From IMG/VR virus record IMGVR_UViG_3300043122_000283, positions 1 through 55,664 of that record: a stretch of 55,664 nucleotides of DNA, one strand, 5' to 3'. Numbering within the stretch: position 1 is the first letter of the stretch; every line of letters starts with the position of its first letter. The notes under the pieces were generated by a model. The model saw only the letters and a program-made list of their open reading frames with translations, had not been told where the DNA came from and searched no databases. Positions 9,574-34,926 of the stretch are shown here, one piece after another. This DNA is from a virus. Both the position numbers and the translations under genes were made by a program.

Positions 9574-10395
9574 TTAGTTTATTTTTATATCTCCTGGAAC
9601 TATTCTTTCGTCCCAATATGTATTTTTATTGCCTATTATTGTCTCTCTACCATCTACAAACATTTTTAATATTTCAACATTTTTAATTTTGTTACGGTCA
9701 ACACTCATTAAAATATCTATAAGTCTATTCAGTACAAGCTCAGAACCAAGCTCTAAATTTGCTAGATATTCTCTTATCTCCTCTTCTGCACTGTAAACTA
9801 TTCTTGTTTTATCCTCAGCGTTAACATTAGAAAAGAATGTATACTGAAGAGTGAAATCTATGTACTTAAGTTTTGGGCTAAGTGCAAGGCCTTTAACCCC
9901 TGCTGATTGAACGCTATCTATCTTTTCCTGAACCTCTGATATTACTTCGCTTGGTGTTTCAGGGTCTTCTGTAATAACATAAGCATCGAAAGTTCCTGTG
10001 CCTCTTACATACTTTTTTATTTTGATATCTATCACTGAGTCTACTGATAGGCAGGCTAAGCGGACTGCTATCTCATTTGCTGCTGCTCTTGTTTCTGTCC
10101 AGCTTTTAATCCTGTATCTAAAATTCCCGTCATCTTCTCCCTGCTCTCTTTCGATACCAAAAAGTAATGCCAGCTCATCTAAGTAAATCCCCTCAGTATC
10201 TGAGATGAAATACTTTTTAGCAACCTGAGATAAATCCCTGTAAAGGTCATCTAAGTCATCGTAAAAAACCTCTATTAGAGACCGTGCCAGAGAGCCTGCA
10301 GAAAAGTCAGTAAGCTCAGTTTTATCTTTAAGTCTATCTATGGCATCTTCCACCATCGTATTATAATCTTTTAAAATCGCCTCATCATAAAGCAT
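9574..10395 (-). CDS. Baseplate J-like wedge protein
   Basis: A 273-residue protein with the features of the phage baseplate J / T4 gp6-like family. The helical N-terminus contains FSAGSLARSLIEVFYDDLDDLY and then EGIYLDELALLFGIERE. A Glu/Asp-rich FRYRI segment follows, and the alpha/beta core has a YVITEDPETPSEVISEVQEKID stretch ending in SAGVKG, the usual J-family turn. These proteins form the wedge ring that holds the contractile sheath to the hub. It lies directly after the gp25-like gene, the standard wedge gene order. ATG start at 10395 with a GGCGGTG ribosome site. It is somewhat shorter than typical J proteins. Confidence 0.88.
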   Translation of the reverse strand: MLYDEAILKDYNTMVEDAIDRLKDKTELTDFSAGSLARSLIEVFYDDLDDLYRDLSQVAKKYFISDTEGIYLDELALLFGIEREQGEDDGNFRYRIKSWTETRAAANEIAVRLACLSVDSVIDIKIKKYVRGTGTFDAYVITEDPETPSEVISEVQEKIDSVQSAGVKGLALSPKLKYIDFTLQYTFFSNVNAEDKTRIVYSAEEEIREYLANLELGSELVLNRLIDILMSVDRNKIKNVEILKMFVDGRETIIGNKNTYWDERIVPGDIKIN

Positions 10396-10407: not shown

Positions 10408-10788
10408 TTAAGCTATATCTATTGGAAACTCCATTGTTATCTGTTCGTTGTAACCGAGTCTTACTGCAATATAATATGTAATTTCGGTTCCTCCTGTAGG
10501 TACTGCCCTAACATTTAAGTCTTTTTCTTCAATAAAACCGTCATGTGTCAGCGCCCTTACTATATTGGCCCGACCGGACTCTCCAGTTTGTCTAGTGTTA
10601 TCCATACCCCTTAAGTCCTCAAGGTCACTTCCTATATTAAAATGCCTGTACCAGTCTGGATTATCTGTCTTGAGTCTTTTTTCTATGCCCTGCTTTACCG
10701 TTTGTTTAAAATCTGCTAAAAGCAGTTTGCCTTCATCTATTATAATATCGCCCGAACTTGCCCCTTTGAAATCTCTAATAGAATCCAT
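10408..10788 (-). CDS. Baseplate wedge protein, gp25/lysozyme-like family
   Basis: A 126-residue protein resembling the gp25 / W-type baseplate wedge family. It has a short N-terminus, a helix with ADFKQTVKQGIEKRL, a central DNTRQTGESGRANIVRAL segment and terminal strands (EITYYIAVRLGY, then ITMEFPID). In this family the protein initiates sheath polymerisation next to the wedge. The ATG at 10788 directly follows the TAG stop of the upstream 193-aa gene, so translation is likely coupled. It lies 12 bases before the J-like gene. The assignment rests on size, pattern and neighbours. Confidence 0.8.
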   Translation of the reverse strand: MDSIRDFKGASSGDIIIDEGKLLLADFKQTVKQGIEKRLKTDNPDWYRHFNIGSDLEDLRGMDNTRQTGESGRANIVRALTHDGFIEEKDLNVRAVPTGGTEITYYIAVRLGYNEQITMEFPIDIA

Positions 10789-11838: not shown

Positions 11839-11867
11839 ATTATATCACATATTGGTCCATTTTTCAA
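11839..11867 (-). promoter_or_regulatory. Consensus sigma-A promoter for the baseplate/fibre genes
   Basis: On the minus strand, TTGAAA (11867-11862) and TATAAT (11844-11839) are separated by exactly 17 bases, with an extended -10 dinucleotide (TGA before TATAAT). The -35 overlaps the TGA stop of the 2388-aa gene. Predicted transcription start is near 11832, giving a leader of about 45 bases to the OB-fold gene. It is the best promoter match seen in any intergenic gap of the window. Confidence 0.75.
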
Positions 11868-14800
11868 CTTCCGTAACAGTCGTCAATAGTATTGTTGACA
11901 GTGTTTTTGGCACTTCCAAATGCTTTGTTATAAGTGTTGCTTTTTAGCTTTTTACTATCAAATAAAGGAAATAAATCAACCTGAACAGAGTTGTCTTTAA
12001 ATACCTTGACTGTTCCAAATCCGTTAACTGCTGCTTCCTTAATTATCTTTACTGTATCATTGATATCCATCTCTCCGGTTCTTGGCTCAAATCTGATTGC
12101 AAGCCCATTATCATAGAGAATTTTATCCTCATTATAGGAGCCGAAAGATTTTCCATCTACTAGAGCTCTTACATTAGTAGAGCCTAAAGACCTTTTTACA
12201 GATTCAAAAAGTGTTATTATTTTAGGGTGAACTTTGTGACCTTTGTAATCTGCTAGGATATCAGGATTATCTTTTACAAAAAGAGAAGCTTTCATGGACC
12301 AGCCAATTCTGTTATCTTCTTTGATGTCGTATATTGACTTGAGCTCCTGAGTCTTTTTCTTTCCCTCGTCTTTATTATTCTTATCTACCTGAACGGCATC
12401 TTCTACTTCCTTTTTCTTAGATTCTTCTTTGGCCTCTTCTTCAATTTCTTTAGTGAAATTTAAGTTGTATGAGTCTTTATAGATTCCTTTAACATCATCT
12501 ATATTTGTTACACCCATTACCTTCCTTGTCATTTCACTATTTTGTTTGGCACCATAAAGGCTTGCCGAGTTTGTTATCCTCTCACTATTGTCAATCATGT
12601 ACTGCCTCATCTCGTCTTTACTGATTGACTCTTCTGACTTTCCGATGAAGAAGTTTATTATACTGCTGTCCCAGAACTTATCCATCTTGCTTGGGTCGTC
12701 ACCTATGATACAGCCCTTGTGTCCTTCAAGTCCTGCCGTAAATTCTTTGCCATCTCTTTTGAGTGGCATTATTGTAAGAACTTCTCTATTAGCCCTCATA
12801 TTTTTTAGAAACTTCATGATGTGGCTTACTATTACAAATTCCACAACCTCAGTCACGAGAAAGAACATTGGGCCTGACAGTATCTTAGCTACATCTTTGG
12901 CATTTGAAAGTCCGTAAGTTGTTAGCCTTCTAAAAACCCTGACATCGTCAAGTATATCTCCGACCTTCATTCCGGATTTTCTGAGCTTGCTGTACTTTCT
13001 CATATCATTCATAAATCCGGGAAAATCGTCAGCATTTCTAGATGCAGTTTTTAGGTATTCTCCCATTCTTACATAACCGTTTCTGAAATCATTTAATCCG
13101 TCACTTATCTTTTGTGCCCTGCTGGAAAACTTACCTGAAATCATCATCTTCCTCAAAGAGTCTACGTTCTTAAGCCCTTTTCCACCAAGCTTGGATATGT
13201 CGCTCATTTTATTTGCATTATCTAAAAATCTTGAAACCCAAATAACAAACTTATCTGTTTTTGTTCCGAGGTCCTTTATTCTTTCTAAAACATTTTTTCC
13301 TAAAAGAAATGGAAGGTAACCAAGATTTGAATGCTTTAAAGCGTCTGTTGTTACGTCAAGGTATTTAGTAGCTGCCATACCGGCATTTGTTGCCGGGAGA
13401 AGTGAGCCAGCTGCACTTGTTATCTTTAGTGATTCTAGAACGCTTTTCAGGCTTGCTAAAGCTGTGTATGTCGAAAGCCTTGCTACAACACTGTTAGCAT
13501 AAAGACTTGAGAACTTGGAGTTTGTCCACTTCCAAAAATCCTTGTCGTATTGAAGGCCCTCATTTACAGAAACTACCGGTGATGGATTGATTGATGTTAC
13601 AAAACCAGTTGTATCATTTAAGCTGTGGACAACTGATGAGACTTCAAAGGTTCCTGAAATTCTATCTCTTACATCTGCTAGGTATCCATAATCATATGGT
13701 TTAACAGAAGGGTCTCCTGTAACTACTATCTCTCCGTCGTACATATTCTCTACTGCCTGTTTTAAGGCTCCAGCCCCATACCTTCTTGCATTTATCTCAG
13801 CGTTTTCTGGTGTAACCTGAAAGGTGTTTGTAAATTTCTTGACAAAATCAGGGGTTGGTATTGAAGTATCTATCTTTTTTAACCTCTGTCTATCAGGAAA
13901 AATATCTGTGTCTACAAACATCTCATCAAGCTCTTTATAGCTTCCGTCTTTTGAAAGGACAGGCTTAACTGCTGTGTACATATTCTTTTCTGTAGCTCTA
14001 ATATTATTTGCTATTATGTCATAATAGCTTGAATAGAAATGGTTCTGCCTGTAAGATTTTAACTTTTCTCTAACATTTAACGGCTCTATCTTTCCTCGAA
14101 CCAAGGTTTTGAAGGTAAAAATTACATTTTTTACATCGTCTTTTGGAGGGGTACTGAAAATAACACGACCTAATCTATGGTCAATCTTGTCGATATTATC
14201 TGTTATTTTTTTGTCTCCATCCCTAACTTCAAGACTTCCTTCAATTATATTCATTCTTAGTTCAAAGGTTTTTCTAGTTCCGTTACCTGTAAACGAAAGC
14301 TCAACTTCTTCCTCTTTAGATTCTTCCCTGATATAGTTGCCCTTTTCATCCATTTCAGCTTCATAGTCATAAGCCAAATCAAAGTTTGGGTGGCCAAAAA
14401 AGATTGTATTTCTAAAAGCAAATGGGTGGACTGCTGCTATATAGTTAGGTGCTACAAGAGCACATGTTTCCAAAACATCCCATACTGTCTTACCATAGAG
14501 ATACATAGAGAAGTCTTTGTTTTCATAAAGAGATGAGTTTATGTTCTGTGTAACCTCATAAGTTCTTTCTTCATCCCTGACTGCTCTTTCCATCTTGTCG
14601 CTAGACCTTGAGTTTTGATTTATATATATATCAGTTATTGGATGTCTTTTTGTTAAATACTGACTCTCATCCCACCACTCAGGCCTTTTGGGCTCTCCAA
14701 AATGCTGTATTCCGTAAGCACTCTCATTATAGAGTAAGTTACCTGAAATGTTATTCATAAACCTAGACCATAAGTTGCCTCTATCTCCTACTATCTTGCT

Positions 14801-17800
14801 GATTATAGTTCTTGGTTCATCTAGCTGTCCAAGTATGTCAAAATCAGTCTTTTCGTTGGGAGATGCTGGTATTGGTTTGTTTAACTCTATGCCGTCATTT
14901 TGAGCTACAAAGGTTATAGTATCACCAAGCTGAAGCTCTGTTATAGTTCCGTTGAATACAGTTGGAAGCTTATCTGGTGTTGAACCATAGCCCATTCTTA
15001 AATGAAGCCTGGCACCTGTTGCAAGCTGTACGCTTTCAAACTCTGAGTTTCTCTTAGCTTTTTCCCACTCAAATTCAGCAAAAGGTGTTAAAGACCATAA
15101 AGTCTCCATTACTCCTTTTTCCTGATAGTATTTATTTCTGTAACCACCAGAAGCATCTGATAATCTGCCCTTTGAGTTTGACATTGTAATCATACATGTA
15201 TCTGATATGTTCTTCTTATCTCTGACAACATCTATACTCTGTACACCATTGTAGTGGTAGAATAAATCCTGCATTTTCCAGAACATAAACTCTCTACCCT
15301 CATCAATCAGGAGCATGTAATAGGATGGAAAAGCTCTGATTAACCTTCCTTTTCTGTCATACTCAAGCATGTCGTTGAACGAACTTGCAAACCTAACATC
15401 TTCTCTTCTTGACTGCATGTATGTTCCTTCAGATGTTAAAACAAAATTATCTCCGTTAATAGATTCTAGAGATTTTTTAATTAACATCGCAAAGTTAGGT
15501 AGCATATCAATCATTTCTGTAGGGTTTATATAAATACCCTTAGAGCCTATAATATTTTTAGCTGATTTTTCAAATCCTAAATATGCTTCCTTGACATTAT
15601 TTGCAGACTCAGGATAACCTCCTTCGTAATTAGATATATCATTTAGTGAGATGCCTTTAACTAAAAAGTATGAAAGCATCTTGAACATATAGTCAACACT
15701 TTCTCTTTTAGAATAGTTCTCATAAAGATTGCTTACACCTGTGCCTTCGATTCTGTCAAAGTTTATTTGTGGAGATTTTTCTTTTAATATGTCATATATT
15801 TTTCCAGATTCAAGCTCATACTTTAGTATACTGGCCCTGTAATTAGAAGCTATTTTTTTCTTAACATCTTGGTTTAAATTATCTCCATTTAAATTTAAAA
15901 CACCATAATAGCTAGCTTCAGATAGTTCATCTACCAATTCTCCACTGCTGTTTCTGTAAAGGCTTTTCTTTGGAAACTCCAGGTAGTCATCATCTATGTA
16001 GTCCTTATCCCAGTTTCCTACAATAAAACCTGCTGCAATTATTCTTTCTATTTCACTAATATCTTTCTGAACAGTGCTATCAAGCCATTTAATAACATAT
16101 GACTCCCAGAAGTCACTAATCTTTATTTTTTTATGTTTAACATTACTTACCATTTTATCTTCAGAGGCAAGGTAGCTTTTAAGCTCTTTGTCTGATACAA
16201 AAGACATGTTGCTTCTATCCAAACTTCTATTATCCATAAACTCGCTTAACTCATTGTAGCCTACATCTCCTTTTTCGTATGCTATATCTGCAAGTGTTGG
16301 CTTGGAATCTCTTTTGTATTCGCTTTGAATATTAGAGTCAATTAAATTTATATTACCTTTATCATCAACTAAAGCTCTAACAGCATTACCCTCTGTGTCT
16401 CTACCGATAATTACTGCATCATCTTCATCATATAAAGCCCTGATTACATCTTCTGAAAATACTTTTGGCACATCAAGAGCATAAAAATCAGGGTCTACAA
16501 AGCTGTCATCATTAGCATCAAATAGTTCGTGCCTTAATGGAAGCTCTGAATATCTAGGAAGCTCAAGGTCCGGATAAAGGTTGATGTATTTAAGTCTCTC
16601 TTTCATATTGAAATAGTCTGTTAAATTATCGTGACCCATTTTTCCGTCGACACCAAGCTCCGAACGGTACTGAAGTGATAGAGAGTCTTTGTCTCCTGGC
16701 GCACCAATATAGCCGAAAAATGAAATCTCAATTTGGAATAATCCCGGCATAGAAGGTACAGTATTTGTCTCTATATTTTTAATATAAGCACCATCTAATC
16801 CAAACATATCAACTATATTGTTTTGGACTTTCATTACCGGATTATCTAAAACTTTTTTGTATCTAAGCTCCATAGCACTAGTATGAGATGCAAGAAAGTT
16901 AATGCTCTCTAATGTATGTTCGTTATCTGTGACAAAGCTAGTTGAAATAACTATATCTTTTGAGCCTAAATACTGATGAGTTGGTTTTGTGTGCATATTT
17001 AACTTTACGGTATTTACGCCGTTTGACATCGATACATTTATTTGGTTTAAATGAAGGTCGCTGTAATAATGTTTGTTCCACTCGTAATCATCCATCTGAT
17101 TGTCGGTCATAGATACAGCTTCTTCTCTTTCTTTTAAGAGGTCTTTACCACCGGCTATTACTCTGTCTTTGATATATAAAAAGCTGTCTCTTGAGATTTT
17201 AATATTAAAAGAATTAGCCTCTTTTATCCTCTCGATTTCTTTTTCAGTTGACTTAACTAAATCGAGTTCTGTTGGTATTAAATTATCTTCTTCTTTTTGC
17301 TTTAAGTAGTTGATTAAAAATTCTTTATTTTTCTCGCTTCTTAAAGCTATATCGAAATAGTCACCATCATAGCCTTCAATTTTAACAAGGTCTTCAATTA
17401 GATTATCGTAGCGGCTAAGTCTTCCATTTTCCAAGAAATCAAGCTCGTTGTGGATATTAGGCTCATAATAGAGCCCATCGTTGAAGCTGTCATTTCTTCT
17501 TTCCTGTTTGTCAGCAATTTTTCTTATGTATTCTAGGTAAAGCTCTTTTTTTGAATCCTCATTATTAAGGTTATAACTTCCCTTTAGCTCATTAAAAAGT
17601 TCATACTGTTCCAGAGCTTCTGTAAACACCTCATATTCAAAGACTAGCTTTTCGTATTCTGTACTGCCTTCTTCAAGGTCTATCTGGTATTCTCTTAAGA
17701 CATCTTCCAGTGAAGCTTCAAGGTTTTCTCTTTTCTGTAAGGACCAGCTATCTACTGTAAAGAAGGAAAAATCCTCTCCGTCTCTCTGGTAAAAGGGTAG

Positions 17801-19030
17801 TTTTGTACCCCTATGCTTTATTCCGGTACCATCTATAAGTCTCTGGTAGTAAAATCTAAATAAACCCCAGTCGAAGACATCTTTAAAAGGTCCAACCATA
17901 TTTATGTAAGCTTCATGATTAAACTCCAGTGCTATTAATGTAGCCTTAACAAGTCCCGGAAATCCCTCAACATTACTGATTGATAGGTTTTGAAGTGTTA
18001 AAGCTGAGATATCATGAGTTTTGTTTAGGTATTCATTTTCTATAGGTAAAAAAGGTGTCAATTTAAATTGGGCCATTAAAGGCCTCAATCCGTTTATGTA
18101 ATATACTGGTCTAAATTCCTCTCCATCCTGCATGATAACTGCGCTTTTACCGGCAGCTAATTTAGGAAAGCCGTTAATCTGGTCACCTTCATAGGTTCTT
18201 CCCTTTATAAGTTCTTTTGTTCTTTTGTTGCTGTCGAAATAAAACTCCATCTGTACCTGTTTTTGCCTGTGGCCTGTTGAGGACATTAAAGTGCTTCCAC
18301 CACGAATGACTGATGTTGGATTGACTTCATTTATGTCGTTTACCACAATAGCTTCAGGAGGTATCGGAAGAATGCTGTCACCTATTTTGATGTTTGTTTC
18401 AGGGTCAAAAGAACCTACAAACTCATCTAAGTCCTCTTCAATCTTTTCTGTTTCTTCTTCCATCTTCAGCATATCTGCTATAATAGATAGGTTAGACCAC
18501 TCTTTTTTCTCGCTGTCACTTAAGTTCATAGCTTCAACATAATAAGGTGTCCCGAGAGAGTTTGTTAAAAGAGAAACGTTGGCATTTACATATTCTTCTC
18601 CCATTTTAGCAAAGATAATTGCTATCGGCCGTGAAAACCTTCCTGTTATCAAGCTCCCGTTTTCTTTAGTCCTTAAATCAAGTATTACTTCCTTACCTAA
18701 AAGTAAGTCTTTCATAAAAAGGAAGGACTCTTCGGAAAACTCATCTTTTTCTTCATAACCTGTGTACCTATAATCATCATAATCTCTTAAGCCAGACTTA
18801 TCATCTTCCATATCCCAGAAAGATGTGCCCTCGGGAGCCTGAACACCCGAGAGTCTTATTGAATAAGTGCCATCAAATTCTTTTTCAGTACCCTTAAATA
18901 TAGGGTCTGAACTGGTAACATATATAGTGTCACCATCCTGAACTCTTACGACTTTTGCTTTAACAGGCTTTGACTGAAGATTTTCTTTCATTATTATATT
19001 TTTAGTTGTTGCGTAATTGTACTTTGCCAT
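11864..19030 (-). CDS. Giant baseplate hub/tail protein with N-terminal staphylococcal-nuclease-like domain
   Basis: A 2388-residue protein. The start chosen is ATG 19030, because the in-frame GTG at 19039 lies inside the AGGGGTG ribosome site. Residues 22-170 match the thermonuclease (SNase) fold: VVRVQDGDTIYV (DGDT 32-35), IRLSGVQAPE (R59, E67), LLLGKEVILDLR, and GRFSRPIAIIF with EYVNANVSLL. Residue 64 is Gln where SNase has a metal-binding Asp, so activity is uncertain. Residues about 1270-1555 have hub/late-control-type patterns (CMITMSNSKGRLSD, ARLHLRMGYGS, NGTITELQLGDTITFVAQNDG, VWDVLETCALVAP). A hydrophobic stretch lies near 2060-2085, and residues 2263-2354 resemble a degenerate M15-like fold. 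The gap to the RNA polymerase-like gene is 11 bases. Confidence 0.78.
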   Translation of the reverse strand: MAKYNYATTKNIIMKENLQSKPVKAKVVRVQDGDTIYVTSSDPIFKGTEKEFDGTYSIRLSGVQAPEGTSFWDMEDDKSGLRDYDDYRYTGYEEKDEFSEESFLFMKDLLLGKEVILDLRTKENGSLITGRFSRPIAIIFAKMGEEYVNANVSLLTNSLGTPYYVEAMNLSDSEKKEWSNLSIIADMLKMEEETEKIEEDLDEFVGSFDPETNIKIGDSILPIPPEAIVVNDINEVNPTSVIRGGSTLMSSTGHRQKQVQMEFYFDSNKRTKELIKGRTYEGDQINGFPKLAAGKSAVIMQDGEEFRPVYYINGLRPLMAQFKLTPFLPIENEYLNKTHDISALTLQNLSISNVEGFPGLVKATLIALEFNHEAYINMVGPFKDVFDWGLFRFYYQRLIDGTGIKHRGTKLPFYQRDGEDFSFFTVDSWSLQKRENLEASLEDVLREYQIDLEEGSTEYEKLVFEYEVFTEALEQYELFNELKGSYNLNNEDSKKELYLEYIRKIADKQERRNDSFNDGLYYEPNIHNELDFLENGRLSRYDNLIEDLVKIEGYDGDYFDIALRSEKNKEFLINYLKQKEEDNLIPTELDLVKSTEKEIERIKEANSFNIKISRDSFLYIKDRVIAGGKDLLKEREEAVSMTDNQMDDYEWNKHYYSDLHLNQINVSMSNGVNTVKLNMHTKPTHQYLGSKDIVISTSFVTDNEHTLESINFLASHTSAMELRYKKVLDNPVMKVQNNIVDMFGLDGAYIKNIETNTVPSMPGLFQIEISFFGYIGAPGDKDSLSLQYRSELGVDGKMGHDNLTDYFNMKERLKYINLYPDLELPRYSELPLRHELFDANDDSFVDPDFYALDVPKVFSEDVIRALYDEDDAVIIGRDTEGNAVRALVDDKGNINLIDSNIQSEYKRDSKPTLADIAYEKGDVGYNELSEFMDNRSLDRSNMSFVSDKELKSYLASEDKMVSNVKHKKIKISDFWESYVIKWLDSTVQKDISEIERIIAAGFIVGNWDKDYIDDDYLEFPKKSLYRNSSGELVDELSEASYYGVLNLNGDNLNQDVKKKIASNYRASILKYELESGKIYDILKEKSPQINFDRIEGTGVSNLYENYSKRESVDYMFKMLSYFLVKGISLNDISNYEGGYPESANNVKEAYLGFEKSAKNIIGSKGIYINPTEMIDMLPNFAMLIKKSLESINGDNFVLTSEGTYMQSRREDVRFASSFNDMLEYDRKGRLIRAFPSYYMLLIDEGREFMFWKMQDLFYHYNGVQSIDVVRDKKNISDTCMITMSNSKGRLSDASGGYRNKYYQEKGVMETLWSLTPFAEFEWEKAKRNSEFESVQLATGARLHLRMGYGSTPDKLPTVFNGTITELQLGDTITFVAQNDGIELNKPIPASPNEKTDFDILGQLDEPRTIISKIVGDRGNLWSRFMNNISGNLLYNESAYGIQHFGEPKRPEWWDESQYLTKRHPITDIYINQNSRSSDKMERAVRDEERTYEVTQNINSSLYENKDFSMYLYGKTVWDVLETCALVAPNYIAAVHPFAFRNTIFFGHPNFDLAYDYEAEMDEKGNYIREESKEEEVELSFTGNGTRKTFELRMNIIEGSLEVRDGDKKITDNIDKIDHRLGRVIFSTPPKDDVKNVIFTFKTLVRGKIEPLNVREKLKSYRQNHFYSSYYDIIANNIRATEKNMYTAVKPVLSKDGSYKELDEMFVDTDIFPDRQRLKKIDTSIPTPDFVKKFTNTFQVTPENAEINARRYGAGALKQAVENMYDGEIVVTGDPSVKPYDYGYLADVRDRISGTFEVSSVVHSLNDTTGFVTSINPSPVVSVNEGLQYDKDFWKWTNSKFSSLYANSVVARLSTYTALASLKSVLESLKITSAAGSLLPATNAGMAATKYLDVTTDALKHSNLGYLPFLLGKNVLERIKDLGTKTDKFVIWVSRFLDNANKMSDISKLGGKGLKNVDSLRKMMISGKFSSRAQKISDGLNDFRNGYVRMGEYLKTASRNADDFPGFMNDMRKYSKLRKSGMKVGDILDDVRVFRRLTTYGLSNAKDVAKILSGPMFFLVTEVVEFVIVSHIMKFLKNMRANREVLTIMPLKRDGKEFTAGLEGHKGCIIGDDPSKMDKFWDSSIINFFIGKSEESISKDEMRQYMIDNSERITNSASLYGAKQNSEMTRKVMGVTNIDDVKGIYKDSYNLNFTKEIEEEAKEESKKKEVEDAVQVDKNNKDEGKKKTQELKSIYDIKEDNRIGWSMKASLFVKDNPDILADYKGHKVHPKIITLFESVKRSLGSTNVRALVDGKSFGSYNEDKILYDNGLAIRFEPRTGEMDINDTVKIIKEAAVNGFGTVKVFKDNSVQVDLFPLFDSKKLKSNTYNKAFGSAKNTVNNTIDDCYGS

Positions 19031-19041
19031 AAAAAACACCC

Positions 19042-22000
19042 CTATTCAAGTGCAGCAAGAATTCTATCTTCTATCCAGCTTTGGTTTATTGAACCTCGAT
19101 TATCACTGGCGTTGACATTTATGTTAACCGGTATATTCATTGCAGAACCTACGCTTTGTGATACAACTCCTGCCAATTCGTTTACATCTTTATCTATTGT
19201 TGTGTTTCCATTAATTATGATATCCATACCCTGATTATTTACTATATTCTGGATGCTGTTCATATCCATCATGGGCTGTCTTGAGCCTGCACCAGAAACG
19301 GCATTCATTGCCGGATTATTCATGTAGTCCATAGGTAGAGGCTGTGTGCTCATTGCAGCTCCAGCACCCATTATAGCTCCACCTATAGCTAATCCTGCGG
19401 CCGCCATAGGACCGAAAGCCTTATGCTGTGCTACTTCTGATGACATAATTGCTGCAGTTTTGGTATTTGCTACCTTTAAAAATTCCGAAGCTGCATTGCC
19501 TGTATAGTTGATTCCGTTTTCAGCTATATGACCAGCATTTTTTGATAAGTTTTGATTGCCCTTGTAGATATTTCTGCCCGGGCCAGTTGTATAAACACTT
19601 GCCATTTCTTTTTCTAAACTATCTACCATTGTATCTTTTATCATGGAATAATCTGCAACGTTAACTTCTCTTGCAACTTTCTCACTTAAAAATATCTTGT
19701 TTGCCACATTTTCAAGCGGATTATTTGCATCTTTTCTCATTCTAAAGTGGACATCGTTCATCGCCTGTATCTCTTCTGGTGATAGGTCCATCATGCCTTC
19801 AAAGTTGCTGAACTTACCTTCTCTAACCCATTTTATAATCTGGTCTGTTGATACTGATGAGCCGGACTTTTTAGTCATTGAGTGTTTACCCGATACAGCT
19901 TCCTGAGTGATTAATCCAAGCCCAGAAGCAAAATTAACAAGCTCTTTGTCGGATGTTGCATAACCCTTACCAAGTCTTTTGATTTCATCTGTCAGGTTAT
20001 TAATCATACCTGTATAAGTTGCATTTGTAAGTTTAGCTTTAGAAAGCCTTGTTGCATAATTTTCAAGCTCTGATTTTGTCATTTGCCTTGTATCCCAGAC
20101 ATCAAGTTTGCCCTTAAAGTCTGAATTTGATTCTATTGTTTCAAATACTGAATCTACATAATTCTTCTTACCTAAAGTTACATCTTTTTCTAGGGCTACC
20201 ATATTCCTTTTAACCCATGGCCCTTTTGAGTTGTATGAAGTGTTTCTCATTTCATCAGCAACTCTGGCTACTTCTTCTTCCATTTTTTTGGCATTTGTTC
20301 TGACGCCTTGTTTATTATAGGCCATTACAAAAGATACCCTGTCACCATCAGAATCACCAAATTGAGCAGCTGCCATTGTTGATGATATTCTAACAGTATC
20401 ATAATCAAGCTCATCATCTATTCTGTATTCAACAGGCATTGCTGACTCTGTATGGATTACAGGTGAGCGGAACATCATTCCAGGCATTCCTTTACCTTCT
20501 TCAAGTCCTGACATTATATTGTCAAACTGTTTTTTGTCTGTTTTTTCCAAACCTTTAAGCATGTCTTTTGCTCTATCTCGACTGATATAAATAGCATTAG
20601 ATTTGTCAAGGCCTTTGTAGCCAGCACCCTTTACCCCTGCATATGCTTTTTTTATTACTTTTTCATCTATATCAAATTTTCTTGCTACCTTTGATATTTT
20701 CTCTTCTGTAGTGCCGCTTGCTCTATTAACCTCATCTGCAATTTCTAGAGCTGGAGACATAATCTGCAGGTTAAGCCTTCCCGAGCCTTTAAACCTTGCC
20801 GATAATGCCCTGTTATATTTTTGCCCGTGAGAGCTTGTAGACTGATGGAAGATTGCGTTATAGTAATTTTTGATACCTGTTTTCATACTTCTTAAAGCTT
20901 TTTCTTTAGCCTCCCTTGCTGAAAGGTCTCCAGCAAGTTGCGAGGAGTTTTGGACTGCTGTATTATATTCCCTCATCGCATTAAAGATGTCTGATTCTGC
21001 CCTACCTATTTCTCCTAAAGAGTAAAGGGCTTCTCCATTTTTTTTCTTGGACATCTCAATTGCCGTATCTGAAAGGAATATTTCGTTTAATTTAACCCTT
21101 GTTCTTCCTGTTTTTTCGTTTCCAAACTCTATCTCAAGTTCTTCTGGCAGTGAAATATAAAGGCCGTTTTTCCCTCTTCTTCTGTATTCGGGGTCAAAAA
21201 CTGTCTTTGTTAAATCCGATTTAGAGAAAAGGCCTTTTTCCTGCCCCTGAGTTCCACCTTCTCTTAACTCGCTTAACTCTTCTAGAACTTCTGTGTATTC
21301 ATTTATTCTGGAACCATCTGGTACTGCACCTTCACCTCGAGCTGCTCTTGCAAGCAGTTCCATAGCTCTTGATTGGCCTTCAAGTGCTCCATTTAAGCCT
21401 CTTGTTCCAGGTAGTGATGAAATCCTGTTTGCCTGTTTTGCTTCTTCTAAAACTGAGTCTTTTAGCCATCTGGCGTATTCTGTGTAACCCTTGTCCATCA
21501 TGACTCCGATATGTCTTGGACCTACTTTTACGCCTTTTTTGCCGTAGCCTCCGACTGACATGAAGTTTATGTCTTCACTGTTTTGAGCTAAGACTGCCTC
21601 TAGGTTTAAGATATTATCTTTTAATCCTAGGTTGAAGGATTTTATGTTGTTTAAGTTAGTTCTTAAATCTTTGATACTTAAGGCACCTTTGTTTCTAACT
21701 ACGTTGGCAACTCTTGGGTCAATATTTTTAAGACCTAGATTTGCCTGGTCTATTCCTCCTTCGGCTACCATCAGGTGCTTGAATCCGGCTTTGTTGTTGT
21801 TGATTACAAGTCTAAACTTACCGCTACCTGTTTTGCCCTCTTCTTTGATTGTTGTTGCCAGACCAAAGGTTCTATCTACAATATCCTGAACTTCCTGTAT
21901 AGCTTCCTGTTTGATTTGTCTATCTATATTTGAATGGTTTATTTTATTTATCGACTCTTTGATTAAGCCCTCTGCTACTTCTCCATAACCCTGATGTCCT

Positions 22001-25000
22001 GCGTGGTTTATATTACCTGCAACATGAACGCCTTCGCCGAATGCTGCCTTCATAATTTCATCAGGCACAATATTTCTGACAGTAACCTTCTCTGAAGCCA
22101 AAAATAGTTTGGTTACCCCAGCCCTTGTGCTGAAGTTCTCTTCGAACTTGAAGCTTATCTTGCCGTCATTGATGTTGAATCCTGTAATGAAGTGTTCAAC
22201 CCCATCTTTTCTGGATACCCTTTTAAATATCTCGTCAGGACCCATCTGCTCCATGTAACCCATTCTGTAACCTGAGCCGCCATCTTTAAGTGAACGTTTA
22301 ACTTTATTAATAAAGCCTTCATCTAAATCAGACAGCTTGTAGTCTTTTGTATATGAGTTTACTGAATGTAGCGAGTCTGCAAAACTTTGAGATACAATAG
22401 CCTGGTTTTCCCAGAAAGAAGGGAAGTTAGCTGGAGATTTACCAAAAACACCTTCCATAGTATATTTGTCGCTTTTATCAAAGGCATTTTTTAGCTTCTC
22501 TATTCCCTCAAGCTCATCAACATTTGCTATGCTGACATTAACGCCTGGATATTTAGCAAAAGCATTATCAGTATCTCTTAAAAACTGTTCGGACTGTGTG
22601 ATAAGTAAGGGGTCAATAGAGAGTCCTGAATAACCCTTAGCTTTATTTATATTGTCCTGTATTGACTCTATAGCCTTTTTAGAAAGTGTTCTTTTATTTC
22701 TCATCTGTATCATGTTGTCACGACCGGGAGAGTTGTACATCCCGAAGTTAACAAAATTTCTGTTTTCGATTGAGCTTAAAAAGAACTGATTTACTGCGTG
22801 TGCACCTCTTGTCGATTCTAAGGATGCATCAATTCCTAATTTATTTTTAATCATTTTTTGAACTGAGCCATCAGCAAACATGTTAAACTTTTTAGATGGG
22901 TACAATGTTTCACCATCAAGCCCTACCTGTTCGCCTTGATTTTCAAAGACACCTCTAAATAGTACATATCCTTTTTTAAGAAAGTCGGCTTCTGCTGTTG
23001 AAGAATACATCTTCTCTGCGTCTCTTACATACTTGTTTGAGCCCGAGAGATAGCCTAAAGATTTTTGTATCTTACCGTTTGCTATCATTTCTATTCTTCT
23101 AAAGTCGCCTTCCTGAGCTGCCTTAATCATACTGTTGGCCTCTCCGTTAAGCTCATGCATCATGTAGCTGAAAGAGGTTCCTGTTTTTATATCGGCTCCT
23201 GCACTGAATTTATCCCTATAAAGGAGTGCAAGTGGTGATATTTTTTTCTGGTTTCCGTAATGAATATACTGGTCTGCATTAACCAGAGGTATATCTATTA
23301 TAGCAGCATTTTTATTTGCTTTTAATGCATCAAGTGTTAGCACATCATCTGAGCCCTGCTTGAAAATAGCCATTGATACCTGCGGCTTTTCTACCGTACC
23401 TGTGTTGAAGAGCTCAAAGCCTAAGTCGATATCTCCTTTGCTTGAGAACGCTGTCCCAAATTTGCGTATGGTGCTATTTAGCGAGCTTTCCATTGTAGGT
23501 ATATTTGAAACGAATTCTTTTTTAACTCCCAGTGCCATATAGTTTTTCTGCAAAGCTTCATCTAAAGCCCTTACAGTAGTTAAAACACTGTTGTTAGCTC
23601 CACCTGAAAGACCCTTAGCAAAGCCGTGATTGATGGTTATTCCACTAGCATAGTCTAAACCTTTTCTTAAATATGTATCCACATTATCCATCATCTTTTG
23701 GGTTGTGAAAGCATTTCTTGCTCCAAGTCCCTCAACTTCCATCACGCTTTTTTTAAGTCCCGGTATTTTATCTCTATAATCAACCAGTAGGTCTGAAAGT
23801 GCATTTATCTGGGTGAAGGCATTGTCCTGACTTTTAGCCATAGGTCTTATAATTTCGTCAAGCCTGTACATAAAGCCCTCATAATCTTTGTTGGCCATAT
23901 TCTTCTGGTACTGACTTGCATGGTCTTTTACGCTGTCTAAAACTTCAATAAAAAATCCGTCAGCTGTTTTGAAGTTTCTTCCTGCTGTTGACTCTGTATA
24001 GTTGAATAGTCTTCTTAAGTCACGTCTTGCATTTGATTTTCTCGCAAGTGAGATTCTTGTGTTTCTACCATCTGGCCCCAGAAGGTCTATTCCGTAAGCC
24101 TTGTTGCTTTTAAGGTTTATAATATCTTTATTTTTTCCAAAATCTTTTTGCATTTCCTGATAGGCATTTACAACTGCTGCGTGTCTTTTTTGCACCGGCC
24201 AGTAGTTTGGGTTTTCTTTATCTCCACCATGCAGTGCTTCTACTTCCTTAACAAGCTTGTCTAGTATAGGAGCATCACTTGTAAGTCTGCCCCTCATTCT
24301 TCTGTAGTTTTCTTTCCAGTTGCCCCTTATAATTTTAGAGCCGCTTTTATCTGTATATGAGAATATTTCATCAAGTTCGTTATTTAAAAGACTTCTTCCC
24401 TGTGCTTTTTCTAAGTTATAGGCCTTTAATGTTGCCTGTAAGTTTTTGTAGTTTTTAAAGCTGATATTGTTTGTCATCTGTCTGAACTTAGAACGAGCGA
24501 TATCGTTTCTGGTATTCATATACATTCTCTGCATATCGGTATTTGAATACTTTGCAGCATTGTCAAATTTGGAATAGATAAACTGTCTTAATTCCTTCTC
24601 GTTTGACTTATTGACATAGACATTTTCCCCTGTCATAGCATTCTGCAGCTTAACTCCGACCGAGTCTTTATTCCTAAAACTTCCTACAAATCTGTATTTT
24701 GTGTGTGAACTTATGTAAAATTTGCTTCCATCTACTACTTCTTTGCCGTCATTGAATGCCGTAACAAAACTCAATGGACCTTTACCTGTATCCATTGCCC
24801 CTGCTGTAGAAAACAGCTCGTCTCCGGGTTTTAGGGAGCTTATATTAAAGTTCTTTGAAAAATCTCCACCACTAGATAAGATGTTTTTATTTATGTGGTC
24901 GAGGCCCTCTTGGCTGAAAAATAAGTTTGAGACTACGTTAAAAGCTTTTCTTGTATCATCAGCTGCTGAGTGAGTATAGTTTCCAAAACCCATAACTTTG

Positions 25001-26106
25001 GTCAGGTTCTCCATTTTTAAATGACCTGAGTTAAGTCTTGTTAACTGCCCTGTATCTACACTGCTTAATTTCTGCAGGTCAAGCGGTGTGGAATAAAAGG
25101 CGTTTGCTAAATCCAGTGTATCTATATACTGTTTTGGTTTAAATCCGTTATCAAAGCCGTTAGCCTGCATGAATTTTGTCAGGCCTATATTATCAAAATT
25201 TTCTATATTGTGACCCATAAAGAAGGCATTTGAATTTGCATTCTGTTCGGCAAGATAGTAGCTTAAGTTTTGAGCTACACTACTTGCATCTTTACCATAT
25301 TTTTGTAAGTTGCCCAAACCCTCTCTTGCTAGGGCCAGCATCTTTTTACCTGAACTTGCAGAGCTTAATCTTTTAAGCTGACCTCCATCAGTAACAAACT
25401 GTTTGTACATATTAGAAGCTTTTCCTAGTTCTGTCATAGAATTTTTCTGTACAAACTCTGCACCGTTTGAGTATTTGATTAAATCTCCGAGAGTCCTTCT
25501 TTCGGAGTCGCTGAGCATTGGAGTTCTGCCGTTTTCGTAAAAAGCCTGTACTTTATCAAATAGCTCGTTGATATTATCAACAGAAGCTCTATTTGGTGCT
25601 ACAATAAATGAACGCTCTAAGGCTCTTTTAGAAAGCTCATCACCGTTCATTGTGGCAGAGTAGAAGGAGATTTCTGTCGGTGTAAAAATATTACCTTCAT
25701 TCATATCTCCTAAACTCTCTATATCGAAACCAATTATTTTTGAATTTGTGTTGATGGCCTTCTGCCAGTTTCTAATAGCTTTATGTGGATTCCTGCCGTA
25801 AGTTACTGCATTTACATCCTTGAAAATATCAAGTGTTCCTCTTTTAACACCATTTTCTGTCATTGCATTTTTTATTTTACCAAGGTCATTATATATTGCA
25901 TTTATCTCTTCAAAGTTGTGCGAATACTGAACGGCTTTATTGGCAGCTTTATCAAGCTTTGCCTTAGCCTTTCTTTGACTGCTTACTTGAAAGAGAAAGG
26001 AAGGCTGAGGGTCAGAGACCCTATTTGTAACCTTTAAACCGTATTTATTATACATTTCTTCTTTGTAATCCGACGAGACTGCCGGCATGTTATCAAAATC
26101 GTACAT
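19042..26106 (-). CDS. Giant virion protein: DEDDh exonuclease fused to single-chain two-barrel RNA polymerase-like module
   Basis: A 2354-residue protein. N-terminal DnaQ-like exonuclease: Exo I GFDIE (D128, E130), Exo II MGHNIENFD (D305), Exo III HSAADD (H379, D384). RNA polymerase-like motifs follow in beta-then-beta' order: WENQAIVS at 1232-1239 (compare NxEDAIVIS); K1333 and K1340 (compare the GDK...NKG lysines); VHVAGN at 1360-1365 (compare VDIVLN); NRALSARFKGSGR ending at 1777 with P1785 (compare RQNLLGKRVDYSGR...GP); FRSPVIH at 1879-1885 (compare NRAPTLH); and FGDSDGD at 1916-1922 (compare NADFDGD), with all three metal-binding Asp. The region around 2064-2074 (GLITQEAVSGKH) may match the post-catalytic helix. 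A Gly/Ala/Met-rich hydrophobic segment lies at 2229-2252. Single-chain polymerases of this kind are known from crAss-like phages (virion gp66) and YonO. The location between tape measure and hub suggests it is packaged in the tail and injected. Confidence 0.75.
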   Translation of the reverse strand: MYDFDNMPAVSSDYKEEMYNKYGLKVTNRVSDPQPSFLFQVSSQRKAKAKLDKAANKAVQYSHNFEEINAIYNDLGKIKNAMTENGVKRGTLDIFKDVNAVTYGRNPHKAIRNWQKAINTNSKIIGFDIESLGDMNEGNIFTPTEISFYSATMNGDELSKRALERSFIVAPNRASVDNINELFDKVQAFYENGRTPMLSDSERRTLGDLIKYSNGAEFVQKNSMTELGKASNMYKQFVTDGGQLKRLSSASSGKKMLALAREGLGNLQKYGKDASSVAQNLSYYLAEQNANSNAFFMGHNIENFDNIGLTKFMQANGFDNGFKPKQYIDTLDLANAFYSTPLDLQKLSSVDTGQLTRLNSGHLKMENLTKVMGFGNYTHSAADDTRKAFNVVSNLFFSQEGLDHINKNILSSGGDFSKNFNISSLKPGDELFSTAGAMDTGKGPLSFVTAFNDGKEVVDGSKFYISSHTKYRFVGSFRNKDSVGVKLQNAMTGENVYVNKSNEKELRQFIYSKFDNAAKYSNTDMQRMYMNTRNDIARSKFRQMTNNISFKNYKNLQATLKAYNLEKAQGRSLLNNELDEIFSYTDKSGSKIIRGNWKENYRRMRGRLTSDAPILDKLVKEVEALHGGDKENPNYWPVQKRHAAVVNAYQEMQKDFGKNKDIINLKSNKAYGIDLLGPDGRNTRISLARKSNARRDLRRLFNYTESTAGRNFKTADGFFIEVLDSVKDHASQYQKNMANKDYEGFMYRLDEIIRPMAKSQDNAFTQINALSDLLVDYRDKIPGLKKSVMEVEGLGARNAFTTQKMMDNVDTYLRKGLDYASGITINHGFAKGLSGGANNSVLTTVRALDEALQKNYMALGVKKEFVSNIPTMESSLNSTIRKFGTAFSSKGDIDLGFELFNTGTVEKPQVSMAIFKQGSDDVLTLDALKANKNAAIIDIPLVNADQYIHYGNQKKISPLALLYRDKFSAGADIKTGTSFSYMMHELNGEANSMIKAAQEGDFRRIEMIANGKIQKSLGYLSGSNKYVRDAEKMYSSTAEADFLKKGYVLFRGVFENQGEQVGLDGETLYPSKKFNMFADGSVQKMIKNKLGIDASLESTRGAHAVNQFFLSSIENRNFVNFGMYNSPGRDNMIQMRNKRTLSKKAIESIQDNINKAKGYSGLSIDPLLITQSEQFLRDTDNAFAKYPGVNVSIANVDELEGIEKLKNAFDKSDKYTMEGVFGKSPANFPSFWENQAIVSQSFADSLHSVNSYTKDYKLSDLDEGFINKVKRSLKDGGSGYRMGYMEQMGPDEIFKRVSRKDGVEHFITGFNINDGKISFKFEENFSTRAGVTKLFLASEKVTVRNIVPDEIMKAAFGEGVHVAGNINHAGHQGYGEVAEGLIKESINKINHSNIDRQIKQEAIQEVQDIVDRTFGLATTIKEEGKTGSGKFRLVINNNKAGFKHLMVAEGGIDQANLGLKNIDPRVANVVRNKGALSIKDLRTNLNNIKSFNLGLKDNILNLEAVLAQNSEDINFMSVGGYGKKGVKVGPRHIGVMMDKGYTEYARWLKDSVLEEAKQANRISSLPGTRGLNGALEGQSRAMELLARAARGEGAVPDGSRINEYTEVLEELSELREGGTQGQEKGLFSKSDLTKTVFDPEYRRRGKNGLYISLPEELEIEFGNEKTGRTRVKLNEIFLSDTAIEMSKKKNGEALYSLGEIGRAESDIFNAMREYNTAVQNSSQLAGDLSAREAKEKALRSMKTGIKNYYNAIFHQSTSSHGQKYNRALSARFKGSGRLNLQIMSPALEIADEVNRASGTTEEKISKVARKFDIDEKVIKKAYAGVKGAGYKGLDKSNAIYISRDRAKDMLKGLEKTDKKQFDNIMSGLEEGKGMPGMMFRSPVIHTESAMPVEYRIDDELDYDTVRISSTMAAAQFGDSDGDRVSFVMAYNKQGVRTNAKKMEEEVARVADEMRNTSYNSKGPWVKRNMVALEKDVTLGKKNYVDSVFETIESNSDFKGKLDVWDTRQMTKSELENYATRLSKAKLTNATYTGMINNLTDEIKRLGKGYATSDKELVNFASGLGLITQEAVSGKHSMTKKSGSSVSTDQIIKWVREGKFSNFEGMMDLSPEEIQAMNDVHFRMRKDANNPLENVANKIFLSEKVAREVNVADYSMIKDTMVDSLEKEMASVYTTGPGRNIYKGNQNLSKNAGHIAENGINYTGNAASEFLKVANTKTAAIMSSEVAQHKAFGPMAAAGLAIGGAIMGAGAAMSTQPLPMDYMNNPAMNAVSGAGSRQPMMDMNSIQNIVNNQGMDIIINGNTTIDKDVNELAGVVSQSVGSAMNIPVNINVNASDNRGSINQSWIEDRILAALE

Positions 26107-26109
26107 TTA

Positions 26110-29100
26110 CTAGCCCCCCAGTGCTCTCTGTATTTCAAGCTGTATTTTTCCTGTTACATCCTGTACCATATCGAAATTTATATTTATACTGTTATCTTCT
26201 CTTGGAGTTATTTTAATATCCACATCTCTGATATCATAATCTGTTAATACTTCTTCTAATCTTGTTCTGATAAATCCGGATGACTTTCTGTCGAAACGCC
26301 TACCATACTCAACTGGAGCTGGTGTTAGCTCTTCCTCTACAGTGTAATCCTTCCAGAGTCCGAAATCTTTAGGGTCATAACCATTATTTTCAATGAGTTT
26401 TATCATTGAATCTTCAAGGTCTGCCCCTTCCCTCCAGCCAAACCAATTTTCATCTGGCAGTGCATACTCTCCGAACATATCTATTAGAGATTCTTTTTCT
26501 GTTTCCATACCCCATAGAATTTTGTAAGCTCTCTTCTGGTTGTCAGGAACAATTTTTAGTATTTCTTCTCTTTCCTTTTCGTCTGTAACCTTAGAGAAAT
26601 GCTGTAAATATTCCCTATCCTTACTTGGAAAAGCAGAAAACATCTGCTGGAAAGTTGAACTTCCATCAAGTCCAAATAGTGTAGAGCGGTATTCCTGTCT
26701 GTATTTAACCGCCATTCTTGCATAAGGGCCCAAGCCAACAAGCACCTCTTCTGCTTTGGTATCCCTTAATTCCTGAAGTATTTCTTTTCTTTTTGATTCT
26801 ATAAACTCTTTTTCTGTGACTAAATTGTATTCAACCCTGCCCTCTGAGTTTATTCGTTTCTGGACAGTGTCTTCTTTGCTAATGCCGTACCGTAGTAAGT
26901 GTTTGGAAAAACCTTCAAGCATTTTTTCTTTCTTTTTTAGCCTCTCGTCAATCTCTTCCATCTCACTTATTATCTTTTCAACATCAACGTTTTCTTCTTT
27001 TTTAGCTACGTCTACATATTTATTATAGAGCCTCTTATTTTTAACAAACTTTAAGAGGTCGTAGTATTCCCATATCTTTCTTTCTTCTTCTCTTCTTTCC
27101 GGTATCCACGCCTTACCCGTCTCCAACTCGTACTGTGAGCGAGCAATAGAACCGACACCTGCAGCTACCGCACCGAAGCCACTCATTGCCTTTCTAACTC
27201 CGGGACCTCCAAGCAGAAGTCCTGTTATAGCTCCTGCTGTAGCACCAGATAATGTAGCCCAGAAAGGATTTCTGGCCCAGGCACTCTGGAATGACGGTAC
27301 TAAAAGGTCGTCAACTGGCTCGTTCCATGACTGCCATTCTTTGCCGTAAACTTGATAGTCTTTGTAGTGTTCCATAGGTGAGCGTACATTGAAGAATTTA
27401 TTATGGACTATAGGGATTGGGGCGTGTGCTACTCCTTCCCATATCCTTCCTAAAGCCCTTCCTCCTACGCCTAAGTTTACATAAGTATCAATAGCCCCAT
27501 CTTCTTCTTTGGCCTGAACTCCGCTGTCTAAAAGCCTTCTATTTACATTTGAGTCCTGACTGTAGACAACGGCTGGAGTTGAGGCGTTGGGGTTGCTGTC
27601 TTTTGATGCTAGAAGTGTTATTTCGCTTCCAGGCATCATTGTCTGTTCTAATATGTTTAGGGTGTTTTTGCCCTCTTCGGTCTCTGCATTGAAGTTGGTA
27701 TTAACACCTGCAAGGCGGTATATTCTGTCTGAACCTTTAACCGTAAAGCGGCTGGAATCTAAAAACTTTTCTACAACAGCTGATTCTCTCTCTATATCCT
27801 GACCCAAAAACTTATATGGTGTTATATGATATTTCTTATTTGCCTCTTCTTTTTGTTCCTTAGCCTGAGCTAAGAACTCTTTGGCCTCCTGTGAGAGATT
27901 CTGTTCTGAAGCTATTTTAGACCATAGCTTATATTCCTGTGAATATGGAGCTATATCAGCTAAGATGGCTGCTCTATCAACTGCTCCATACCTTCCGTAC
28001 TCATCAGGGTGGAGCTTATTCATTGACTCGTAAGCTTCTCCTGGAAGCCTTATTTCGCCGCGTTTTACCTCAACGAAGGGGTCTCCGGTGCGGAACCTAT
28101 CAGGCATCCAGCCGGGCATTGTATTTGGTATGTCGTTTATTACCTTATATAATCCAGGTCTTTTGTTGATAAATCTTCTGAAAATCTCTGAAAGCTCTCC
28201 ACCACGGCCACCAAGCCCTGTATCCCAGAACCTTGATGATGCAGCGTAAGCATCAGATGCTGTCGCTAAAACAGCCTGACCTTCACCATAATCGTCTCCT
28301 CCAGTTACCATAGAAGCTAAGAATCCTCTTGCACCTGTGATATCCTTGAAGATGTCTAATGTTCTTTCCATACTGTAGCCGATATCAGTTGGGCTTTGCA
28401 CATCTAAAGCAAGTTCGCCTTCTTCTCTCGGCTCGTAATATGACATTGTAAATCCTGTATTTAAAATGCTCTTTTTGTTTATCCTGCTTATCTTACCTGA
28501 TTTATCTATAATTGATTGGTTTATATTCTTTAAATCTTTTAGTGAGTAGTTCTGGCCGTTTACTACAAGGCCACTGCTTTCAGGGTTTTCAGTAAGCCTA
28601 ATAGCAGCTCCTGAACCTCCCGGACCACCACCTTGAACACCAACTGCATTTGCATTTTCCTTATTGCCTGCAACACCATTTATTATGACATTACCAGAAC
28701 CTATTCTTCCTCCACCTGTGGCAACGCCAACATTTGTTGACATTGTATATTTAGGTATATATGTTGAAAGCTGCAAATCTCCACCTGAAAATCTGGCTAT
28801 TACATCTTTGGCATAAGCATTATTTTTCTCTATTCTTTCTAAGTCTTCATCTGTTGCACCTGCAGACAGTTTAATTTGTGGTTTTAATATCCTGCCTATT
28901 GTTGGATTTAAGAGTGTGCCCCACAGTGTATTAGGGTCAAACATTTCTCCTGTTAGAGGGTATGGTCTGTCTTTTAAGTGCATCTTTTCAAACCAGTACC
29001 TGTCCGTCACAAAACGTTTAACTGGTGCCAGAGGTTCTGTTGGAGTAGGCATCCAGCTGTGAGCCCAGTAATTTTCTCTTGAGCCGTAAACTGTATCTGT

Positions 29101-32997: not shown

Positions 32998-33738
32998 TTA
33001 TGCTCTATCTAAATCTTGTGCTAGAAAATTATAAACTTCTTTGATTGGTTTACCACTGCCATCAATGACCTGTGATAAGCCTGTTATCTGTATATTATTT
33101 ATTGAACGGACTGTGCCGTTATTAACATTTTGGTAATAGTTTAATTCTTTCTCATTGCCAAAACCCTCTTTAGCATAGAGTCTATCTTTGCTGTAAGGAC
33201 CGTAAGTAATTAGAATATCAAAGGTTTCATCTGAATTATCTTTTGACTGAAAAAAAGCTTTATTATCTCTGCTGTAGTTTATATTCTTATTGACTCCGCC
33301 CCAGATTTTATCTTCATATTCTGTGGCCATCCTGTCGAATTTGGTGCTCCAGCCTCTTTCAAGATATTCATAAAGCTTATCTCTTTCTTCAAGCTCATTT
33401 TCTAAATAACCCTCATTTACATCCTGCTCTTTTGCTATATAGTTTTGAGAGATATCAAACTCACTTTTATCTTCTATAACTTCTCTGATAGCCTTTCTTA
33501 AATAGTCAGCTTCTTTGAAGTTTATTGCAAATGTGCCTTGCACTATTCTTGAACCTCTTGCTACAGCATCGTAGGTAAAAGAATTATAGCCGTGTATCGG
33601 CAAAACCCTTTCCTCCATCACGAACTGTAAGTCTGTGATTTCATCGATTAGTACATCTTCAAAATATACCCTGATATCACTGCCAGAAAAGTATTCACTT
33701 GGAAATCTTTCGTAATTAACACTTGGTTGTGGTTGCAA
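32998..33738 (-). CDS. Tail tube-fold protein, third paralogue
   Basis: A 246-residue protein aligned end to end with the two genes upstream of it: YFSGSDIRVYFEDVLIDEI, GSRIVQGTFAINF and the C-terminal YNFLAQDL match the FSGSDI, AGSLVF and YTFVCRDI positions of the 226-aa protein. An insertion of about 60 charged residues (near 95-150) separates the halves. Start TTG 33738, with GGGAG about 9 bases upstream. The stop of the 369-aa gene is only 5 bases away. It is probably a minor tube-like protein, such as a tube initiator or tail-tip ring, next to the chaperone genes. Confidence 0.68.
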   Translation of the reverse strand: MQPQPSVNYERFPSEYFSGSDIRVYFEDVLIDEITDLQFVMEERVLPIHGYNSFTYDAVARGSRIVQGTFAINFKEADYLRKAIREVIEDKSEFDISQNYIAKEQDVNEGYLENELEERDKLYEYLERGWSTKFDRMATEYEDKIWGGVNKNINYSRDNKAFFQSKDNSDETFDILITYGPYSKDRLYAKEGFGNEKELNYYQNVNNGTVRSINNIQITGLSQVIDGSGKPIKEVYNFLAQDLDRA

Positions 33739-33743
33739 TATTA

Positions 33744-34853: not shown

Positions 34854-34871
34854 TCAAACACCTCTTTTCTT

Positions 34872-34906
34872 AAAAAAAGGGCATGAAACTCTCGCCTCAC
34901 ACCCTT
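34872..34906 (-). terminator. Intrinsic terminator between first and second tube genes
   Basis: On the minus strand, 21 bases after the 226-aa gene stop, AAGGGTGTGA pairs with TCATGCCCTT (10 pairs, two of them G-T) around a 10-base loop. The stem runs directly into a T7 tract. This is the clearest intrinsic terminator in the window. It would make the abundant tube transcript end here, with read-through giving less of the downstream tail genes. Confidence 0.75.
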
Positions 34907-34926
34907 AAGTTTTGTCAATTATTTTT

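Follow-up and report, generated by a model that had tools for sequence, protein, structure and literature searches.

The window, that is, the whole stretch of DNA analysed here, is a virus contig of 55.7 kb that encodes on its minus strand a baseplate-hub-type tail protein of 2388 residues (Table 1). The residue numbers and coordinates of the initial annotation proved exact, with translation starting at the ATG at position 19030. The protein is homologous to the hubs of Moorella phage MTATph1, Bacillus phage KLEB27-3 and Acinetobacter phage vB_AbaM_ME3 (ME3), and hubs approximately 99% identical to it are encoded on two further contigs of 203,584 and 33,488 bases. Its core is homologous to more than 30 related hubs and to the ME3 hub, the latter annotated as homologous to the hub of 0305phi8-36; the assignment to the 0305phi8-36 hub type thus runs through the ME3 annotation. 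For 0305phi8-36, a T4 gp27-like hub fold and a virion location have been stated (PMC2147016). Because the window protein belongs to the baseplate-hub family, it is likely located at the tail tip. In an alignment of eight sequences the hub cores share around 26% identity with many invariant columns, and the acidic linker in front of the core is helical, at low confidence, in the AlphaFold2 model. The genes for a sheath initiator and a baseplate-J protein follow downstream, and two further giant proteins, of 2354 and 1941 residues, are encoded upstream. Elsewhere in the window, three consecutive open reading frames (246, 369 and 226 residues; 32998-35607, minus strand) follow the tail sheath gene and all match the N-terminal region of one PHROG, 9206 ('major head protein'); possibly they are tail-tube-like paralogues, or the PHROG is misnamed.

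Table 1. Coordinates of the hub gene, its domains and active-site positions, and neighbouring features, numbered along the window.
Feature	Position	Strand	Basis or remark
Baseplate-J protein	9574-10395		Downstream of the hub gene, after the sheath initiator
Sheath initiator	10408-10788		Downstream of the hub gene
Open reading frame of the hub	11864-19039	minus	Start ATG at 19030, giving 2388 aa
Baseplate-hub-type tail protein, 2388 aa	11864-19030	minus	Open reading frame and homology to other hubs
Hub core, starting at the conserved RIGD..PP motif	11864-18400	minus	8-sequence core alignment
Acidic linker from SNase domain to hub core, residues 171-210	18401-18520	minus	Sequence
SNase domain (near certain), residues 22-170	18521-18967	minus	Leave-one-out profile; PDB profile and fold matches
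DGDT, residues 32-35; D34 = Asp21 of SNase (metal ligand)	18926-18937	minus
R59 = Arg35 of SNase (catalytic)	18854-18856	minus	Invariant in 20 intact hubs
Q64, replacing Asp40 of SNase (calcium ligand)	18839-18841	minus
E67 = Glu43 of SNase (general base)	18830-18832	minus	Invariant in 20 intact hubs
R134 = Arg87 of SNase (catalytic)	18629-18631	minus	Invariant in 20 intact hubs
Second SNase-fold domain, without catalytic residues	27364-27834	minus	In the 1941-aa protein (26110-31935)

The initial annotation had placed a staphylococcal-nuclease-like (SNase) domain at the N-terminus of the hub, and profile comparisons together with a structural model make this assignment nearly certain for residues 22-170. 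Taken as a single sequence, the domain scored 16.7 bits (E=0.01) against the Pfam SNase family PF00565, whose cut-off is 21, and it matched PHROG 452 ('endonuclease') at 0.011; the suggested Pfam comparison therefore fell short for the sequence by itself, and strong matches came from the profiles described below. Among related hubs, those of MTATph1 (34.9), L037 (31.4) and L022 (21.7 with its frame neighbours) do pass PF00565. Neither a phmmer search of the domain against the PDB nor a search of phage records with the 187-residue domain alone returned a match, and because of the former result profiles were needed. With the window left out, the SNase domains of 10 other hubs gave a profile that recovered the window domain at E=3.8e-14; another profile, made from cellular SNases of Bacilli, did so at E=1e-6, and no second protein was matched by either one among the 44 window reading frames longer than 100 residues. 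When a profile of seven hub domains was compared with the PDB, all 60 matches listed were staphylococcal nucleases (best 1.6e-5). The AlphaFold2 model built from seven sequences has a mean pLDDT of 66 and a pTM of 0.66, with most blocks of the barrel at around 80-90, and the 50 best matches listed in a PDB fold search with it were all SNase or Tudor-SN (best E=3e-6), in agreement with the fold initially predicted. That an unrelated OB barrel resembles an SNase by chance would fit the single-sequence Pfam score under the cut-off; considering both profile recoveries and PDB matches that were only of SNase type among those listed, we regard it as hardly credible and discarded it.

SNases hold calcium through Asp21 and Asp40, which work with Glu43, Arg35 and Arg87. 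The residues named in the initial annotation (DGDT 32-35, R59, Q64, E67, R131 and R134) are all present, and our alignments map D34, R59, Q64, E67 and R134 to Asp21, Arg35, Asp40, Glu43 and Arg87, respectively; R131, which had also been put forward for the active site, is not conserved, the Arg87 equivalent being R134. The window domain resembles staphylococcal thermonuclease (PF00565; PDB 1stn and others) in its OB-type barrel and in the equivalents of Asp21, Arg35, Glu43 and Arg87, but has Gln for Asp40, Ala for Thr41 and longer loops, and is fused to a hub core, whereas thermonuclease is a secreted free enzyme. As regards the calcium ligands, the Asp21 equivalent (D34) is present and Gln64 stands at the Asp40 position, as had been recognized, so that the metal site is altered.

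Asp21, Thr22, Arg35, Glu43 and Arg87 are kept in all 20 distinct intact hubs with an N-terminal SNase, with DGDT appearing as DSDT or DADT in two of them. The rest of the domain is only about 25% identical, and in some hubs the catalytic set is kept even across large insertions. Position 40 is Asp in 9 of these hubs, Asn in 8, Gln in 2 and Glu in 1, compared with 68 Asp, 3 Asn, 1 Gln and 1 Glu in the 73 SNase domains taken from genomes of Bacilli. This difference (11/20 against 5/73 without Asp) gave p=7e-6 in a Fisher test that treats related sequences and not independent draws, also with near-copies collapsed, and seven changes at this position are needed on the hub tree. Given these frequencies, Gln64 reflects a tendency of the family and not decay of the window copy. 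The earlier view of an 'inactive or altered' domain thus survives in its second half; inactivity is less likely, since 20 diverged hubs all keep Asp21, Arg35, Glu43 and Arg87, and residues other than Asp are frequent at position 40 in hubs.

The SNase fold is also found in these tails without its catalytic residues. Two hubs (L028 and L055) keep the SNase layout and have lost the catalytic set, and the 1941-residue protein contains a second SNase-fold domain that lacks the equivalents of Asp21, Glu43 and Arg87 in the alignment. This second domain, detected by its family profile at E=2e-44, occurs in most family members, including ones without a hub SNase, and its AlphaFold2 model (pLDDT 72) matched an SNase in all 50 PDB matches listed (E=1e-4). 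A profile-profile comparison between the hub SNase domain and the domain of the 1941-residue protein was not significant, so homology of the two was not supported at this level, and it is fold and layout that suggest their common ancestry. The fold evidently does not depend on the catalytic residues, and their invariance in the hubs is therefore informative.

Scans with the hub core yielded 44 viral and 6 genome loci, and the hubs are mainly of two kinds, having either an N-terminal extension of approximately 200-480 residues, mostly an SNase, or a direct start at RIGD..PP. In the hub-core tree, which is unrooted and contains some long-branched rows, the clade without the extension comprises 14 rows, 13 of which carry a C-terminal glucosaminidase or lysozyme, neither of which occurs in any SNase hub. 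The MTATph1 hub combines the SNase with a VanY domain, and Pfam detected one M23 and one VgrG3-type domain, each in one of the 35 hubs scanned. A degenerate VanY peptidase at the C-terminus of the window hub was considered from a suggestive gapped alignment with MTATph1 and dropped, as the pairwise comparison did not support it (E=2). Genes of peptidoglycan-hydrolase type lie shortly downstream of the hub in KLEB27-3, Bacillus velezensis pAD3 and Cytobacillus pN497. The SNase is present in the window branch, in MTATph1 and in two large clades and is missing mainly from one derived clade; its presence and absence require three changes on the tree, and its loss in the clade without the extension is the simplest reading. 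The hub SNase would then be an old, vertically inherited part of the hub family, and a dispensable one, because one large clade does without it.

The association between SNase and hub is already published: Hardies et al. (2007) described the hub of BtI1, a related element, as bearing an SNase-related domain at its N-terminus (PMC2147016), and the BtI1/BwK1 hub RBTH_07687 is a homologue of 0305phi8-36 gp147, of the T4 gp27 family (PMC2147016). Going by that description, RBTH_07687 shares with the window protein an SNase-related N-terminal domain on a giant hub, BwK1 having a further N-terminal segment. The hubs of pAD3 and pN497, annotated as 'nuclease', likewise combine an N-terminal SNase with a homologous core, but they keep Asp40, have a longer N-terminal extension and are accompanied by the separate hydrolase genes mentioned above. 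SNase is not mentioned in a survey of jumbo phages (PMC7824862). What is new here is that the catalytic set is constant in 20 hubs although copies of the SNase fold without it exist, and that Asp40 is replaced far more often in the hubs than in cellular SNases.

Stand-alone SNases are also encoded by the 203-kb sister contig and three relatives; the gene on the sister contig (L073, 180095-180340) has Asp40 intact. Hardies et al. suspected an intragenomic transfer of the BtI1-type SNase from such a gene (PMC2147016). In contrast, a tree of 34 rows separates the hub domains from stand-alone and cellular SNases, with 10 of 11 together, and on this ground we rejected the idea that the stand-alone gene of the phage gave rise to the hub SNase. 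The MTATph1 domain sits on a long branch without firm grouping with other hub SNases, and placing all 11 hub domains in one clade was not rejected (p=0.35). The ME3 hub (ME3_37; L005/L063) also contains an SNase, with the catalytic set and a score of 59 bits, above the cut-off, at around residue 1097. Unlike that of the window it is inserted, near residue 1100 of the hub, and it groups with cellular SNases in the 133-column tree, so it is probably a separate, second acquisition; this apparently independent insertion suggests repeated use of SNase at the tail hub.

The 2354-residue protein encoded directly upstream of the hub (19042-26106, minus strand) shows an RNA-polymerase beta'-like signature (R-x-P, about 38 residues, D-x-DGD), with its DSDGD motif at 20341-20355. 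Of 36 family members around 30 have this signature, in most cases at residues ~1830-2000, and a profile of this region matched largest subunits of RNA polymerases in nearly all of 57 PDB matches, the best being PhiKZ055 (E=2.1e-5); comparison of the protein with a crAss-like virion RNA polymerase gave no significant profile match. Its N-terminus (24907-25809, minus strand) has all the residues of a DEDDh exonuclease (FDIETLGD, N-x3-FD, H-x4-D), which are invariant in 11 relatives. In the PDB, a profile of this region matched chiefly DEDD exonucleases and those parts of DNA polymerases that act as proofreading exonucleases (best 5e-4). It is possible that this protein is a virion RNA polymerase; the gene preceding the hub in 0305phi8-36 was assigned as the tape measure by Hardies et al. 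(PMC2147016).

From the computed fold, the homology and the observed residue conservation we infer a virion location, nuclease activity, calcium dependence and a substrate for the hub SNase. Calcium is high outside cells and very low in the cytoplasm. Our main reading, to which we assign a probability of around 0.5, is that the virion carries in this domain a calcium-dependent nuclease that works outside the cytoplasm, with cell-surface nucleic acid as its target. Fused to the hub N-terminus, it would be carried at the tail tip; given the distribution of calcium, it would stay silent while the producing cell assembles virions and become active once a particle meets the surface of its next host. 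There, as the phage adsorbs and penetrates the wall, it could cut extracellular DNA or RNA of the matrix or envelope. Gln or Asn in place of Asp40 should weaken metal binding without necessarily abolishing it, as the amide still provides an oxygen ligand. Nuclease activity is likely for the family and about an even chance for the Gln64 copy of the window, while the role at the cell surface, on envelope nucleic acid, is our best guess. The same fold without catalytic residues in L028, L055 and the 1941-residue protein serves as a natural control in support of this reading, which also draws on the distribution of the SNase in the hub-core tree, the separate insertion in ME3, the grouping of hub SNases apart from stand-alone ones and the known nucleases of contractile particles (Tme and Pne1; PMC11126660); against it we count the Gln at a calcium ligand, the modest confidence of the model, the absence of the SNase from one large clade, and an unrooted tree with long branches in which MTATph1 is not firmly grouped.

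The same Gln64 and the same catalytic-residue-free folds in two hubs and the neighbouring protein would also suit an OB-fold module without catalytic activity that serves the hub as an adaptor, either structural or binding nucleic acid, and might, for example, guide the leading DNA end. We consider this unlikely, as all 20 intact hubs retain the equivalents of Asp21, Arg35, Glu43 and Arg87 in a domain that is otherwise ~25% identical; binding of incoming DNA as the sole role, one of the initial suggestions, is disfavoured by the conserved catalytic arginines and glutamate. Teichoic acids are phosphodiester polymers, and the relatives infect or reside in Gram-positive bacteria, so a phosphodiesterase whose substrate is wall teichoic acid and not nucleic acid could be envisaged. 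Gram-negative cells, however, have no teichoic acid, yet the hub of the Acinetobacter phage ME3 has an SNase, and we know of no SNase that cuts this polymer, making such a substrate very improbable.

Somewhat better placed, though still improbable, is a nuclease that is delivered into the cell together with the DNA, its targets there being the nucleic acid of the host or of competitors. Nucleases on contractile particles are known, namely the effectors Pne1 and Tme, the latter from the contractile injection system of Streptomyces davawensis (PMC11126660); Tme resembles the window protein in attaching a nuclease to a contractile tail-like particle, but it is of EndA type and fused to a tape-measure-like protein, being neither SNase nor hub (PMC11126660). 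Delivery would also agree with the polymerase- and exonuclease-like domains of the adjacent protein. It is opposed by the expected silence of an SNase at low cytoplasmic calcium, by the few copies that a hub supplies and the fusion that binds the enzyme to the baseplate, and by the stand-alone SNase of the sister phage, which could serve inside the cell.

With some reservation, we propose that the hub SNases may be virion nucleases of an ancient family of their own, whose metal site was modified as an amide repeatedly replaced Asp40, and that they may belong to the core of large Firmicutes-type myophage tails that also contain a dead SNase-fold domain and, beside the hub, a giant protein with RNA-polymerase- and exonuclease-like regions. 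If active, the domain would be a virion enzyme directed against cell-surface nucleic acid, and extracellular DNA and biofilm are a barrier for which tail enzymes are little known.
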